Source of the DNA: Candidatus Poseidoniaceae archaeon
GTDB lineage: Archaea; Thermoplasmatota; Poseidoniia; Poseidoniales; Poseidoniaceae
Length of the DNA stretch: 32,562 nucleotides
Assembly (NCBI GenBank): GCA_938084675.1
Contig: CALKGM010000030.1
Location: forward strand, 1 to 32,562
Direction: 5' to 3'
Shown here: one piece after another, positions 1,561-9,085 of the stretch
Layout: the number at the start of each line of letters is the position of its first letter
Numbering within the stretch: position 1 is the stretch's first letter
Notes under the pieces: model-generated
The model's database searches: none
The model's input: only the letters and a program-made list of their open reading frames with translations
Told to the model about the DNA's origin: nothing
Program-made: the position numbers and the translations under genes

Positions 1561-1582
1561 CTCATCAGGCGAACCGTTGAAC

Positions 1583-3514
1583 ATGATTGACCGACTTCCG
1601 AGCCATTTGGCCGAACGCACCCGTCAACTCAATTCGATAGATACTCTCTACGGAGATGGTCCTGTCGTTGTTTGGCTCAAGTCTTCTTTCCGCGTTCATG
1701 AGAACCCTGCCATCGAAGTAGGCGCAACCATTGCACAACAAAACGGTCTCCCGCTTTTGATTTACCACGGCATCGATGAACGGTATCCACACGCCTCTCT
1801 TCGACACCACAACATGCTGTTAGAGGCTGCAATCGATATGGACGAGAACTGTAGAAAGAACAGCCTCCGCTATGTGCTCCACCTCGCACGTGAAGGCCAT
1901 CGCCAACCTGTACTGAAAGAATTCAGTCAAACCGCAAGTTGCATTGTCACCGATATGTTCCCCCTTCCTCCGTGGACAGAATGGCTTCAGACCATTTCGG
2001 CAACAGCGAAAGGGCCGGTGTTCGATGTTGATTGCCATTGTGTTGTCCCAATGCCGATGTTTGGGAAATCGGTAGATCGCCCCTACAAATACCGTGATGC
2101 AACCAAGAAGATGCGAAAGAAACGATTGCAAGCATCGTGGCCTGTTCTCGATGTTCAAGCCGAACAATACACGGGTGAACTTCCGTTTGAGCCGGTTGAT
2201 ATTGCGAATCGCGTTATAGATCCAAATGAGCGAATTGCTCTGCTGCAAGAATGCAACATCGATCCGACGGTTCTGCCGATTTGGGATGTTCGAGGCGGCG
2301 AGAAAGCAGCTCTGCAAAAGTGGCAGAAATTTTTCGACAAAGGCCTCAATGGTTATGCTCGTAGAAGAAATAACGCTGCAGATACAACGGGCGTCTCAAG
2401 GCTGTCTCACGCCTTCCACTACGGATTTTTATCACCGATGAGGGTCGCCCGAGAAGCGGCTGCTGTTGGAACTAAATCCGCAGATAAGTACCTCGATGAA
2501 CTCTTGGTTTTCCGTGAACATGCTTGGCATCATATCTACGCAGTGCCAGAGCCTTATGCCCCTTCAAACCTCCCAGATTGGGCCAAGCAATCGTGGAGAG
2601 ATACCTCTGATGACCCGAGACCAGTCCTCCTTACCTCCCGCCAACTCGAATACGCCACATCACCCTTTGAATTATGGAATCTATGCCAGCAATCTCTCGT
2701 TCGGCATGGTGAATTACACAACAATCTCAGAATGACTTGGGGCAAAGCCTTCCCACTTTGGACTCAAAATCTTGAAATCTCGCTTGAACAATCACAGATG
2801 CTGAACGACAAATACGCTCTTGACGGCCGAGATCCGTCTTCAGTGGTTGGTATTCAGTGGTGTCATGGCCTGTTTGATCGAGCCTTTTTCCCTTCTGAAC
2901 CGGTCATGGGTGTGGTGAGAAAACGAGACATCGTGACGCATTCATCGCGTCTTGACACCGAGCGTTACGGCGCTCATGTCAAACGCAATCCAAGCAAGGT
3001 CGATGGAGTCTACCTTCTGCAGGGGCGAAATCCGATTACTTCTTTCGTTGCCAATGTTCTTTCCGACCAAGGATATACGGCTCACTTTACTGAAACAGGA
3101 GATGCCTCAACTTCAACCGATTCCATACCCCCACTCAGCGAACGTGATTTCCAGCGCCATCCGACTTGGTTGGTTGAAAAATATCTTGTATTGGAGAAAG
3201 AAATGCATGTCCAAAACCCTCGCGTCGAATCATCCCATGTTTCCACTGGACTGAGTGAAGACGGTTCTACGGCCAGTGTTGAAAACCAACATCATGCTGC
3301 TTTAAGCATCATCTCCATCATTGAAGGCAGACTCGTTTTTACTGCCGCCCCACACCAATCCGAACCTTCATCTTCCACGGGCAGAAACTCGGGCCATTCA
3401 GTTCCACTTGTTGAACAATTGAGGCATGCAGCGTGGGATCTTGCTCGTCGTATGTTTGCTTTGCATGCGCATCAATCAGAGTCTGCTTATGCTGTCCAAA
3501 CTCGTTTATTTTGA
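1583..3514 (+). CDS. Class II-like DNA photolyase with long C-terminal extension
   Basis: This is a 643-residue flavoprotein of the photolyase superfamily, predicted to split UV-induced pyrimidine dimers using light. Residues about 20-170 form the N-terminal Rossmann-like domain (VVVWLKSSFRVHENPAI). Residues about 255-465 form the FAD-binding helical domain. Class II features are N-N-x-R-M-T-W-G-K near 380-388, the L-N-D-K-Y-x-L-D-G-R-D-P segment near 407-418, and P-V-M-G-V-V-R-K-R just after. Class II enzymes usually end soon after this point, but here about 170 residues (474-643) follow that I cannot assign. They begin with a hydrophobic strand-loop-helix (VYLLQGRNPITSFVANVL) and contain a low-complexity middle. 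The start is ATG 1583, from the TATA-like box 26 nt upstream; an in-frame TTG lies two codons earlier. It is distinct in sequence from the photolyase ending at 1092. Confidence 0.88.
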   Translation: MIDRLPSHLAERTRQLNSIDTLYGDGPVVVWLKSSFRVHENPAIEVGATIAQQNGLPLLIYHGIDERYPHASLRHHNMLLEAAIDMDENCRKNSLRYVLHLAREGHRQPVLKEFSQTASCIVTDMFPLPPWTEWLQTISATAKGPVFDVDCHCVVPMPMFGKSVDRPYKYRDATKKMRKKRLQASWPVLDVQAEQYTGELPFEPVDIANRVIDPNERIALLQECNIDPTVLPIWDVRGGEKAALQKWQKFFDKGLNGYARRRNNAADTTGVSRLSHAFHYGFLSPMRVAREAAAVGTKSADKYLDELLVFREHAWHHIYAVPEPYAPSNLPDWAKQSWRDTSDDPRPVLLTSRQLEYATSPFELWNLCQQSLVRHGELHNNLRMTWGKAFPLWTQNLEISLEQSQMLNDKYALDGRDPSSVVGIQWCHGLFDRAFFPSEPVMGVVRKRDIVTHSSRLDTERYGAHVKRNPSKVDGVYLLQGRNPITSFVANVLSDQGYTAHFTETGDASTSTDSIPPLSERDFQRHPTWLVEKYLVLEKEMHVQNPRVESSHVSTGLSEDGSTASVENQHHAALSIISIIEGRLVFTAAPHQSEPSSSTGRNSGHSVPLVEQLRHAAWDLARRMFALHAHQSESAYAVQTRLF

Positions 3515-6194: not shown

Positions 6195-6233
6195 GCATCT
6201 TTTACCGTTCGGTCGTTTATGAAAGCCACGGCC

Positions 6234-6239
6234 TATATG
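6234..6239 (+). promoter_or_regulatory. TATA-like box upstream of thioredoxin-like lipoprotein
   Basis: TATATG centred near 6236 predicts transcription from about 6260, roughly 25 nt before ATG 6285. It lies inside the longer open frame that begins at 6219, which is one reason to reject that earlier start. Confidence 0.35.
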
Positions 6240-6284
6240 TCACAAAGGCGTAAGAATGAAGAGGGATATTCACTACGCCAAACC

Positions 6285-6785
6285 ATGAAGTTGAGCACCG
6301 TCTGTCTCTCACTGCTCTTGTTGATGTTGACCGCCTCGCCGGGTTGTATCGGCGGTGATGATGCTGAAAAGACGGAAAATATCCCTTCATTCTCGGTCGT
6401 CGCAGACGACAACGAAACGTATTCGTCTGAGAATTTACTCGGAACCCCTTACATTCTGCATTTCTCTGCCTCTTGGTGCAGTCAATGCAGGCCAACAATT
6501 CATGCCGTTGATGCACAACTTTCAGAACACATGTACATCATCGTATCAACCGATGCTGCAGATTCAACTAAGTTATCTGATTGGCATCAGCAAGTCAATG
6601 AGAGTAAGGAAGGAAGCACTGTAGATTCGCCTTTTTCAGCCAACGCAGACCTGTCCTCTACGTTGGGCATTAACAATACACCAACGCTCATTCTGGTTGG
6701 AAGCAACGGTGAAATGCTTGACCGCCACCTCGGTCCGATGACCGAAAACAGCGTAATCGATGAATTTTGGTCCCAGGCAGTTTAA
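6285..6785 (+). CDS. Thioredoxin-like lipoprotein (TlpA/ResA-like)
   Basis: This is an extracytoplasmic thiol-disulfide protein of 166 residues. Its signal peptide ends in a lipobox (TASPGC, Cys21), so it should be lipid-anchored on the outer face of the membrane. Residues about 35-150 form a thioredoxin fold: the active site W-C-S-Q-C-R-P puts redox cysteines at 65 and 68, and N-N-T-P-T-L-I-L-V-G carries the expected cis-proline. Relatives reduce or shuffle disulfides in secreted proteins or help mature c-type cytochromes; the partner is unknown. ATG 6285 is chosen because it puts the positively charged n-region and hydrophobic core at the N-terminus. An upstream in-frame ATG at 6219 would add 22 charged residues before the signal. 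It is divergent from the calcium-repeat protein and convergent with the HNH gene (2 nt apart). Confidence 0.85.
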   Translation: MKLSTVCLSLLLLMLTASPGCIGGDDAEKTENIPSFSVVADDNETYSSENLLGTPYILHFSASWCSQCRPTIHAVDAQLSEHMYIIVSTDAADSTKLSDWHQQVNESKEGSTVDSPFSANADLSSTLGINNTPTLILVGSNGEMLDRHLGPMTENSVIDEFWSQAV

Positions 6786-6787
6786 TT

Positions 6788-8293
6788 TCATTCGAAACTG
6801 TGAGGCAATTCGAATTGGATGAAGTGGAGTTTTTGCTCCCTCTCAATGCGACATAAAAATCCGCACTCAGTCAACAGCATGTGAATGCGTTCGGCATGAG
6901 TGCCGCCGTCTTTAACGCCAAACTTGGCAAAGTATGCGTCCCAACTTTCGCCGTCTTCTTTCCGTAAATCATCGAGTGCCTCTGTGACACTTTCGAGTGG
7001 TATCCGGGAATGGCTGAATGAATTCAGTAATGCGGTCATGCTCTCTCGGGCGAAGAGAACAGGCAATGAAACTGGTTTGGGGAGGTTTGTATCAAGGTCT
7101 TCCTGTGCCTCATGCTTTTTCTCAATTAAGGCAGGAACCTCAACATCTGCTGCAAAGTTGTGAAAATGGTAATCTTCTTTACCCAAGGAGTAAATGAATT
7201 GAACTGTCCCTTTCCTTTCGATGATGAACTGATTAGGATACAGGCGGATTAGGATGGCATTAATGGAGAGATTCTCCATCCCAATTTTTTGTTTAAACAG
7301 TTCAATACTTCCGTGTTTAAGGAACAATTTCTCAAGTCTTTCGATGCGGTATAACTTATCGTTTTTGATTGAATCTTCAATTCCACTCATTAAGTCCTCT
7401 CTCAATTTCGCAATGGCTTCTTCTTTGCTGAGTTCAACATAAATAGGCTTAATCTCTTCGTTACCGCTATCATCTGAAATGGCCGATGTCAGAAGAGTTG
7501 AAGTTTCCTTCTGTGAAATTTTGTACTCAACATATTCTCCGTCGCCAAACAAGTCATAATCTTCGACTGGAAGATTTTGCGACGAAGCAAGTTGATGCAG
7601 TTCCCAAAACAGGCGGGACATTTGATCGTCCAATTCCTCGTTCTTGCCGTGTACCTGCGTGATGAGAAAGCGAATCGCCCGGTCAGTAATCTTGAACCTT
7701 CCGCGTTTTTTTTCTTGACCGATTTCTAGAACTATCTTGTTCCTCGTTTGATTGCAGAGCCAACACATCCCAACACACTGCGGGAATTCTCCATCGTAGG
7801 AATTTTCGCCTCCATACGACACTGGCACAATGTGCTCAATTGTGAGTCCAAAGAGGCCTCTTGTGAGCATTTCGACGCCACATGTAGGGCATTGTGTTCC
7901 TCTTGATTGCTTAGCAAGTGGCCGAAGTTTGTCCCTGTCGCGGGTATTTTTACCGGCTTTTCTTTTAAAATGTTCATGAGCAGTCCTTTGGCTTGCAAGG
8001 ATATGTGCTTCTAATCGTTCCTGGCGGAGAATTGCTTGACTTTCAATACCTTTCTTGTGGTTTGAATATTCACTGAACAAAAGGAATCCCGCTTCGACCC
8101 GAAACTCTTCTGGAAACAGTTGGTCTAATTTTTTCTGGAAATTATGAGATTCCTTAAGCCCCAACCTCTTCCAAACCTCTTCCTTTGAACCGTGCTGAAT
8201 GTAAAATCGCCTTAATCCAGAATTAATTTTTGTCCCTTTACTGACCATCTTAATCAAGTGCTCATAATACAGCGATTTCAATTTTCCATCCAT
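6788..8293 (-). CDS. HNH endonuclease domain flanked by three winged-helix-like repeats
   Basis: This 501-residue protein has a central HNH nuclease core. Residues 135-138 are CPTC, then L-T-I-E-H-I-V-P-V-S with His154, a GG turn, and CWLC at 177-180 followed by N-Q-T-R-N-K; the four cysteines should bind a structural zinc ion as in McrA-type HNH proteins. Around it lie three similar modules at about 24-76, 310-369 and 434-495. Modules 1 and 2 share a helix ending in H-G-S, a K-R-L-G-L/K-Q-K-I-G-M helix, L-F-P-x-x-F-R-V-E / L-Y-P-x-x-F-I-I-E, and a beta hairpin; module 3 is weaker. They look like winged-helix DNA-binding units. ATG 8293 is preferred over 8326 because a GGAGGTGA Shine-Dalgarno sequence precedes it. 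The target is unknown: a restriction-like defence nuclease or a selfish nuclease are both possible. It stands alone between housekeeping genes. Confidence 0.82.
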   Translation of the reverse strand: MDGKLKSLYYEHLIKMVSKGTKINSGLRRFYIQHGSKEEVWKRLGLKESHNFQKKLDQLFPEEFRVEAGFLLFSEYSNHKKGIESQAILRQERLEAHILASQRTAHEHFKRKAGKNTRDRDKLRPLAKQSRGTQCPTCGVEMLTRGLFGLTIEHIVPVSYGGENSYDGEFPQCVGMCWLCNQTRNKIVLEIGQEKKRGRFKITDRAIRFLITQVHGKNEELDDQMSRLFWELHQLASSQNLPVEDYDLFGDGEYVEYKISQKETSTLLTSAISDDSGNEEIKPIYVELSKEEAIAKLREDLMSGIEDSIKNDKLYRIERLEKLFLKHGSIELFKQKIGMENLSINAILIRLYPNQFIIERKGTVQFIYSLGKEDYHFHNFAADVEVPALIEKKHEAQEDLDTNLPKPVSLPVLFARESMTALLNSFSHSRIPLESVTEALDDLRKEDGESWDAYFAKFGVKDGGTHAERIHMLLTECGFLCRIEREQKLHFIQFELPHSFE

Positions 8294-8297
8294 ACCC

Positions 8298-8305
8298 TCA
8301 CCTCC
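8298..8305 (-). promoter_or_regulatory. Strong Shine-Dalgarno sequence deciding the HNH gene start
   Basis: Read on the minus strand, GGAGGTGA ends 4 nt before ATG 8293 (7 nt from the GGAGG core). It is the best Shine-Dalgarno match I saw in the window. It falls inside the longer frame from 8326, arguing against that start. Confidence 0.75.
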
Positions 8306-8343
8306 TTTGACAGGAACTCCAATCAAATGTTTTGCTGACTGGA

Positions 8344-8349
8344 TTTAAA
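8344..8349 (-). promoter_or_regulatory. TATA-like box for the HNH gene
   Basis: TTTAAA, read on the minus strand in the context GTTTAAATCC, lies about 53 nt before ATG 8293. A transcript starting about 25 nt downstream of it would have a short leader containing the Shine-Dalgarno sequence. Confidence 0.4.
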
Positions 8350-8368
8350 CAGTTCGCCAGCCGATATC

Positions 8369-9085
8369 TCACTGCCTAGGGGATTTGAGATTTCTCTGCC
8401 GCAAGGCTTCTAAAGCCACAACGCTAACGGCAACTTGGAGGTTATAGGAGGGCACAAAACCATCCATTGGTAGTAAAACTACGGCATCAGATGCTTCCAA
8501 TACTTCCGCACTGATTCCTTCTTTTTCAGCACCCACGACCAACATCACATTGCCTGTTAAGTCTTCATCCCAAGGTTCGTGTGTGCCAACATCTTCAACC
8601 GAAATCAACCGGAAATCAGTTTTTCTTATCGCCTTCAAAATCTCTTCAGTGTTGCTGTAGACGACTGGAATAAATCGATCGGCGCGCATGCTCGAGCGTC
8701 GAATTGTCCGTCGTTCCTCATGTGTTTTAGAGACGTTAAGAACAACAGCATCAGCTCCAGAAACCTCTGCTGTTCGTATTGCAAATCCGAGGTTGGTAGA
8801 GTATGTGACACCATCGAAAAACCAAACCGTGCCACCTCGTTCAAGCACTTGTTCTAAATTTCCATGTGGTGTTCTCTCGATGAGCGCTAAAGCGTCGACA
8901 TGACCATCGGCAGACATGCGCCAAAGGTCATTGGTTGAGCCTTCTTCAAGTGGAATATTCTGCACTTGACAGAGTTGTCGAATCTCCGTCGTATCCTTCT
9001 CTCTATCGACCAAGACCATCTTGAGGTCTTCTTGTGCGTGCAGGGCTGCTAGCACTGCATCAGCACCGGTAATTTGTCCTGCCAT
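8369..9085 (-). CDS. SpoU/TrmH family RNA 2'-O-methyltransferase
   Basis: This is a 238-residue knotted (SPOUT) methyltransferase that should transfer methyl from S-adenosylmethionine to a ribose 2'-OH in tRNA or rRNA. The three family motifs are present: N-L-G-F-A-I-R-T-A-E-V-S-G-A (from residue 98; Asn and Arg are the conserved motif 1 residues), V-V-G-A-E-K-E-G-I-S (183-192) and L-P-M-D-G-F-V-P-S-Y-N-L-Q-V-A-V-S (from about 205). Motif 3 usually reads S-L-N; here it is S-Y-N. The first 85 residues resemble the small substrate-binding domain of TrmH/RlmB-like enzymes. The RNA target cannot be given. It is divergent from the rhodanese gene, with a 12-nt palindrome in the 50-nt gap. Confidence 0.9.
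   Translation of the reverse strand: MAGQITGADAVLAALHAQEDLKMVLVDREKDTTEIRQLCQVQNIPLEEGSTNDLWRMSADGHVDALALIERTPHGNLEQVLERGGTVWFFDGVTYSTNLGFAIRTAEVSGADAVVLNVSKTHEERRTIRRSSMRADRFIPVVYSNTEEILKAIRKTDFRLISVEDVGTHEPWDEDLTGNVMLVVGAEKEGISAEVLEASDAVVLLPMDGFVPSYNLQVAVSVVALEALRQRNLKSPRQ

Follow-up and report, generated by a model that had tools for sequence, protein, structure and literature searches.

An HNH nuclease gene with an unusual module layout, restricted to one clade of Poseidoniales archaea

Fusions of a winged helix with an HNH nuclease, archaeal members included, are known as m6A-dependent type IV restriction enzymes. In these proteins, such as HhiV4I/HHPV4I, both parts lie in one chain, where the wing serves as reader and the HNH domain as cutter (excerpts of PMC11037411 and PMC10101028). 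A related design occurs in bacteria and eukaryotes, in which OST-HTH/LOTUS domains are joined to NYN-type (LK/DUF88) nucleases, so that a nuclease is again combined with at least one wHTH module (excerpts of PMC2848206). In Septu systems, PtuB is an HNH nuclease whose gene lies beside that of the ATPase PtuA. In the literature searched, no fusion of a LOTUS domain or OST-HTH with HNH is described, and there is little on defence in Marine Group II/Poseidoniales archaea.

Our analysis concerns a 32,562-nt stretch of a metagenome assembly, termed the window, which is a Poseidoniaceae-like contig. A 501-aa ORF at positions 6788..8293, which an initial annotation had reported without its strand, is read from the minus strand and has eight full-length copies. 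This ORF, called P0001, has the order module 1, HNH, module 2, module 3. It is a real, conserved and clade-restricted nuclease gene with an unusual module layout, and evolves under a dN/dS of 0.23 relative to the copy at locus L023 (genome G121) and 0.16 relative to that at L024.

The gene had been said to stand alone, and the map of the locus does not confirm this. In gene order, a gene for a TrmH/SpoU-type RNA 2'-O-methyltransferase (8369..9085, minus strand; PDB sequence match E 1.5e-15) directly precedes it in 8/8 copies. Because only 75 bp separate the TrmH-type stop codon from the P0001 start on the same strand, the two genes could be co-transcribed. On the other side lies a convergent gene for a thioredoxin-family protein (6219..6785, plus strand; PDB sequence match E 8.5e-6), and the two stop codons are 2 bp apart. 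Beyond the TrmH-type gene follow a gene that we take to be rhodanese-like, then ribosomal L15e, and then one presumed to be RmuC-like; the first and last of these names come from reading the sequences alone. No defence gene was recognised among the TrmH-type, L15e, thioredoxin-family and rhodanese-like neighbours.

The HNH core occupies residues 135-185 (7739..7891, minus strand) and reads CPTC..EHIVP..N..CWLCNQTRN, as the initial annotation had it. Nine residues (C135, C138, E153, H154, N164, C177, C180, N181 and N185) are invariant in the eight copies. The zinc Cys pairs and the EH...N...CxxCN..RN core are those of the HNH endonuclease superfamily. Pfam gives HNH_5 at E 2.9e-4 and HNH at E 0.014 on these residues, both under their cut-offs. 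HNH families of PHROG, a library of virus families only, match better (best E 7.7e-8, residues 90-185). Searches of PDB sequences with P0001, with a full-length profile and with a profile of the K modules described below returned no significant match, and among the phages and plasmids searched only the HNH part was matched, at E 0.004 or worse.

P0001 differs from HhiV4I in that three modules bracket a core of HNH_5-like type, whereas HhiV4I has one wing of the DpnI_C family (PF17726, E 2.2e-16) and an HNH_2 domain. The DpnI_C profile is absent from P0001 at E<=1 and from modules 2 and 3 at E<=10, with HhiV4I matching as positive control, and BLAST links P0001 to HhiV4I through the HNH part only (best E 0.14). 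P0001 is thus no member of the winged-helix-HNH type IV enzymes, though by analogy it may work like them. The earlier statement that no HNH protein has this layout should be narrowed accordingly: winged-helix-HNH restriction enzymes are described (excerpts of PMC11037411), and what sets P0001 apart is that its modules lie outside their wing family. With PtuB of Septu, P0001 shares the HNH nuclease and a weak PADLOC profile match (E 0.0025, residues 97-211) in 1/8 copies, and no PtuA ATPase gene was recognised among the P0001 neighbours.

All three flanking segments had been proposed to be homologous winged-helix-like repeats. For module 1 (residues 1-80; 8054..8293, minus strand) and module 2 (residues 286-376; 7166..7438, minus strand) the homology is confirmed. 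Profiles of the eight copies align in hhalign with a probability of 82% (E 9.9e-6, score 32.7), and none of 60 column-shuffled controls was as good, the best of them scoring 19.4. Module 3 (residues 408-500; 6794..7072, minus strand) gives only 0.24% and 0.17% with modules 1 and 2 from the same kind of profile; thus a threefold sequence repeat was dropped for this module. Its relatives lie elsewhere. The last module of P0004, a second HNH protein of the same assembly, aligns with it at 52% (one row) or 31% (three-row profile), and a module of a protein from genome G095 at 49%.

In an AlphaFold model of the whole protein from two rows (mean pLDDT 42.7), only module 3 is usable, with pLDDT 78-86 over residues 431-490 and 58-66 at the edges (411-430 and 491-500). 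Its order H-E-H-H-H-E-E is that of a winged helix. Module 2 (residues 296-376), modelled together with module-1 rows, reaches pLDDT 65 with the order H-H-H-H-E-E. Because this alignment presupposed the homology of the two modules, the model does not count as separate proof for module 1, whose own model is poor. The proposed winged helices are therefore predicted well for module 3 and moderately for module 2, and extend to module 1 through its homology with module 2 only. Foldseek found no significant match for the whole model; TFIIIC ranked first (prob 0.10) and the ORC1 winged helix second (prob 0.93, E 0.38, 91 columns).

A comparison with OST-HTH/LOTUS domains had also been suggested, and the outcome is mixed. 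Among the best 50 of 201 Foldseek matches to the module 2 model none is significant, yet the LOTUS domain of Tejas takes ranks 1 and 2 (E 0.78, with prob 0.23, and E 1.5). In the same 50, MARF1 LOTUS appears at ranks 8 and 11 and TDRD7 LOTUS at rank 27, with the winged helices of AF1382, RIOK2 and Cdt1 and some unrelated folds in between. The LOTUS order a1-b1-a2-a3-a4-b2-b3 is fitted by the well-predicted part of module 3; in the module 2 model, at its pLDDT of 65, DSSP assigns no first strand. Direct profile comparison gives no link. The Pfam OST-HTH family (PF12872) has no match in whole P0001 at E<=1 or in modules 2 and 3 at E<=10, and hhalign of modules 1, 2 and 3 with an OST-HTH profile yields 0.3, 0.9 and 1.7%. 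P0001 also differs from the OST-HTH/LOTUS-NYN proteins in having HNH as its nuclease and one module ahead of it. The suggested affinity is thus supported through relatives of P0001 and, weakly, through the fold, and not through direct profile matches of its own modules.

These relatives form a wider module family. P0004, encoded on contig C21, consists of HNH and three modules, two of which are 54% identical and define what we call the K type. K modules occur in 19/318 genomes of the order Poseidoniales at E<=1e-4; among 389 genomes of the phylum they occur in 13, all within this order. Their fusion partners are HNH (for example in P0004 and in G246 and G138), a Zc3h12a-type NYN domain (E 1.4e-5, above cut-off) and a PF01936 NYN domain (E ~1e-6, above cut-off), a range that suggests an exchangeable nuclease on a kept module. 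It is through these NYN proteins that P0001 resembles the OST-HTH/LOTUS-NYN group. The HNH proteins with K-type modules (P0004 and those of G246, G241 and G138) resemble P0001 in having HNH and up to three modules and in coming from the same order of archaea, and P0004 also in its last module. They differ in that HNH lies at or nearer the N terminus, the leading module is missing and the module types are others. Kinship of the type-A modules (modules 1 and 2 and that of G095) with K modules is weakly suggested by hhalign (21%, E 1e-3).

A connection to OST-HTH is seen in a module termed H13, found in HNH proteins of G255, G256, G259 and G253. Against an archaeal OST-HTH profile built here from PF12872 hits, H13 aligns at 77% (E 2.1e-5, score 28.8), and 0/200 shuffles were as good (best 16.1). 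Pfam OST-HTH itself gives one H13 module 12.4 bits (E 0.15, under cut-off) and the second none. For K modules the same comparison gives 2.8%, with 3/200 shuffles scoring higher, and Pfam OST-HTH finds nothing in the K-type proteins (E<=1; E<=10) or in 12 K modules (E<=5). PF12872 matches occur in 24/194 genomes of the phylum, and none of the 24 belongs to Poseidoniales.

Individual loci add some detail. At L031 (7339-8952; G000, contig C21) an HNH protein carries two tandem K modules (54% identical) and a third module related to module 3; in G024 (L101) its gene lies between the same neighbours. Six loci (L058, L059, L061, L096, L104 and L118) encode a Zc3h12a-type NYN RNase with a long Lys/Pro-rich linker and one K module, a group for which Pfam was run on L058 and L059. 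In L058, L059 and L061 this gene lies ~4-6 kb downstream of TrmH. LabA-type NYN domains, the usual partner of OST-HTH, are fused to K-like modules in L134, L135 and L136, and Pfam confirms NYN for L134 and L136.

The distribution of P0001 itself was determined in 318 genomes of the order with a profile built from P0001 and its relative L005, from a Candidatus Poseidoniaceae archaeon, which is 45% identical to P0001 over the full length. Matches at E<=1e-5 occur in 17/318 genomes, and the eight full-length copies reside in seven. TrmH was found in 123/170 genomes of the family, 49 of them of genus g18, and six of these 49 (G104, G105, G110, G121, G122 and G132) carry the full-length gene. The seventh carrier is the bin to which the window itself is assigned. 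This assembly (G000) has two L15e and two TrmH genes, on contigs C30 (the window) and C7. Compared with the TrmH of G121, a g18 genome, the C30 protein shows 96% identity and the C7 protein 71%; the latter groups with genus g1. The window contig thus probably was binned into the genome of another genus.

The initial annotation had considered a mobile nuclease. The idea of a patchy, mobile gene is weakened by the tree of the neighbouring genes. In a tree built with FastTree from 53 rows of TrmH, rhodanese, L15e and RmuC proteins (L069 was left out as too short), the eight carriers come out as a single clade with support 0.61, six of them with 0.99, and G099, which lacks the gene, is sister to the clade. 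IQ-TREE on 28 of these rows groups the eight carriers with a modest 82/72, and an alternative that moves G099 next to G105 and G132 passes the AU test without rejection (p 0.33). Because the eight copies all directly follow TrmH and group together on this tree, inheritance appears to be mostly vertical. The simplest reading, which is not secured, is one gain and at most one loss.

Within this clade the window copy stands out. When the window is compared with its nearest relative G121 (L023), dS is 0.14-0.22 in five neighbouring genes and 0.15 in codons 410-501 of P0001, whereas the segments of codons 1-409, comprising module 1, HNH and module 2, range from 1.2 to saturated. Identity to G121 is 64% for P0001, compared with 92-96% for its neighbours. 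At the DNA level, identity falls from ~90% to ~65% at the start codon and recovers at position 7063 (codon 411), apart from one 30-base step past that codon at 77%. The divergent segment thus covers residues 1 to ~410 (7064..8293, minus strand). Inside it 799/1212 bases agree, and outside it 1012/1079; since the borders were chosen after looking, the Fisher p of 1e-65 is descriptive only.

On the tree of neighbouring genes the window and G121 are sisters (91/81), and the module 3 tree also places them together (60/65), with alternatives not rejected. For codons 1-409 this grouping is rejected (AU p 0.002), and G121 is placed with the G110-C42 copy instead (97/99). Between G121 and G110-C42, segments of codons 1-376 have dS 0.35-0.82, much like the flanking genes (0.39-0.80), which makes the window copy the likely recipient. 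In this pair the linker is saturated and module 3 has dS 1.06, both above the flanks and perhaps marking a second event. The pattern in the window looks like modular replacement of an allele, one break lying at the start codon and the other at module 3. A clear block is present in 1/3 close pairs. The pair L025-L026 has none (dS 0.08-0.41 in gene segments, 0.18-0.25 in flanking genes), nor has L027-L028 (0.08-0.21 in the gene, 0.13-0.24 in flanks). Across the segments for which it could be computed dN/dS is 0 to 0.51, which indicates purifying selection, and values of at most ~0.5 give no sign of positive selection. If the reading given below is right, the swap amounts to a natural domain-exchange experiment, and marks the part of the protein that changes as a unit.

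Our preferred reading of these data, held tentatively, is that P0001 is a single-chain nuclease whose LOTUS-like winged helices would attach to nucleic acid and position the HNH active site on it. It would most likely be an intracellular defence enzyme directed against viruses or foreign nucleic acid of other kinds, working in the manner of a modification- or structure-dependent (type IV-like) restriction enzyme. Modules 1 and 2 would set the target, module 3 would be the shared platform, and HNH would cut DNA; the swap would then reflect selection for new targets. A role in defence, as raised initially, fits the block replacement, since such swaps occur in genes whose targets change, as those of viruses do, and the range of nucleases fused to related modules fits it too. 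Against it stand the lack of a strong PADLOC match (weak hits only, each in one or two of the eight copies) and of a recognised defence gene next to P0001. Moreover, most defence genes do not stay at one site in one clade. If the reading holds, P0001 would belong to a defence-like nuclease family of Marine Group II archaea in which LOTUS-like readers are paired with a DNase-type cutter. In animal germ lines the LOTUS fold handles small-RNA granules, and binding of double-stranded or G-quadruplex RNA is a trait of OST-HTH/LOTUS domains. NYN domains are RNases, so modules such as the K type may read RNA, and with the P0001 family one could ask which of the two, RNA or DNA, is read by archaeal LOTUS-like modules. 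An extended version, which we regard as unlikely, is a nuclease immunity specific to Poseidoniales, in which LOTUS-like wings would steer interchangeable HNH or NYN nucleases and strains would exchange a module 1-HNH-module 2 cassette as one block, with the promoter and the C-terminal platform staying fixed.

The constant company of an RNA methyltransferase raises the possibility, which we consider rather doubtful, that P0001 is a host nuclease of RNA metabolism. Its LOTUS-like wings would bind structured RNA, and the HNH domain, as nuclease or scaffold, would take part in processing rRNA or tRNA together with the TrmH-type enzyme. The fixed position directly after that gene in all eight copies agrees with such a role, as do the fusion of K-type modules to NYN RNases in relatives and the mostly vertical inheritance. 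Yet a gene whose full-length form is present in six of the 49 TrmH-bearing g18 genomes, incomplete as these are, is not essential to TrmH. P0001 also evolves faster than its neighbours, as judged by identity to G121, and HNH cores mostly cut DNA.

A selfish, homing-type HNH gene that entered the junction between TrmH and thioredoxin, with wings that read the target site, seems unlikely. Junctions without the gene do exist. The downstream side of TrmH was examined in 70 loci, two of which (L005 and L083) lacked TrmH by the ORF filter used; for L005 the filter had dropped a TrmH gene that a separate look at gene order finds in place. In G142, G149 and G141 the thioredoxin gene follows TrmH directly, other loci have other genes downstream of TrmH, and G114, G152 and G115 are uninformative on the junction because their contigs end within ~200 bp. 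HNH combined with several DNA-binding modules is usual in homing-type enzymes, and the better match to phage HNH families, in a library that holds virus families only, points the same way. However, the eight frames are all open at one site and grouped on the neighbour-gene tree, with the reservation about G099 noted above. Fixed homing genes tend to decay, whereas P0001 is held at dN/dS 0.16-0.23. Pfam detects no known homing-type DNA-binding domain in P0001, and two scans of viral contigs found no relative of it.

That the apparent swap is a chimera of the metagenome assembly, and P0001 an ordinary clade-specific HNH gene, is quite improbable: the doubled L15e and TrmH genes do suggest that strains were mixed in binning, and two other close pairs lack such a block, yet the two breaks coincide with functional boundaries, one at the start codon and one where module 3 begins, and the reading frame stays open.

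The initial annotation had given the gene a promoter of its own. A GAAC..TTTAAATC-like element lies ~50-60 nt upstream of the ATG, and farther in L027 and L028. All eight copies retain it, L025 and L026 in the variant form CTTTAAATC and L005 as CTTTAAGTT, and this is suggestive only. In the window it reads GAACTGTTTAAATC (8342..8355, minus strand), a candidate TATA-like promoter or operator. The exact 9-mer GTTTAAATC precedes 5/8 copies and occurs in 12/167 loci, ten of which are the same five copies in duplicate fetches and the others L046 and L147. In the 1.94-Mb assembly it occurs 9 times, compared with 19 for the reversed control. When <=3 mismatches are allowed, a longer 5' pattern occurs in the window no more often than in shuffled sequence; its exact form occurs in the window only before P0001. 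A scan for sigma-70 type promoters, a model that does not cover archaea, found 2 where 4.6 are expected from shuffles. The conserved element thus fits a promoter or operator of P0001, with the bacterial-type scan at shuffle level. Directly before the ATG, a Shine-Dalgarno-like AAAGGAGGTGAGGGT (8294..8308, minus strand) can be read from the sequence.

A few observations concern the surroundings of the gene. HNH proteins of more distant kinship occur in G005, G010 and G095 (L032, L033 and L029) at ~1.4, 3.8 and 6.8 kb, respectively, from TrmH/L15e, and therefore the TrmH neighbourhood may have long held an HNH gene. The proteins of L027 and L028 (G105 and G132) are 91% identical, and the genes downstream of them are wholly different, which marks a rearrangement border at the 3' end. 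Elsewhere in the window, two genes near each other (1-1092 and 1577-3514) are presumably photolyase/cryptochrome-like, as judged from the letters alone.
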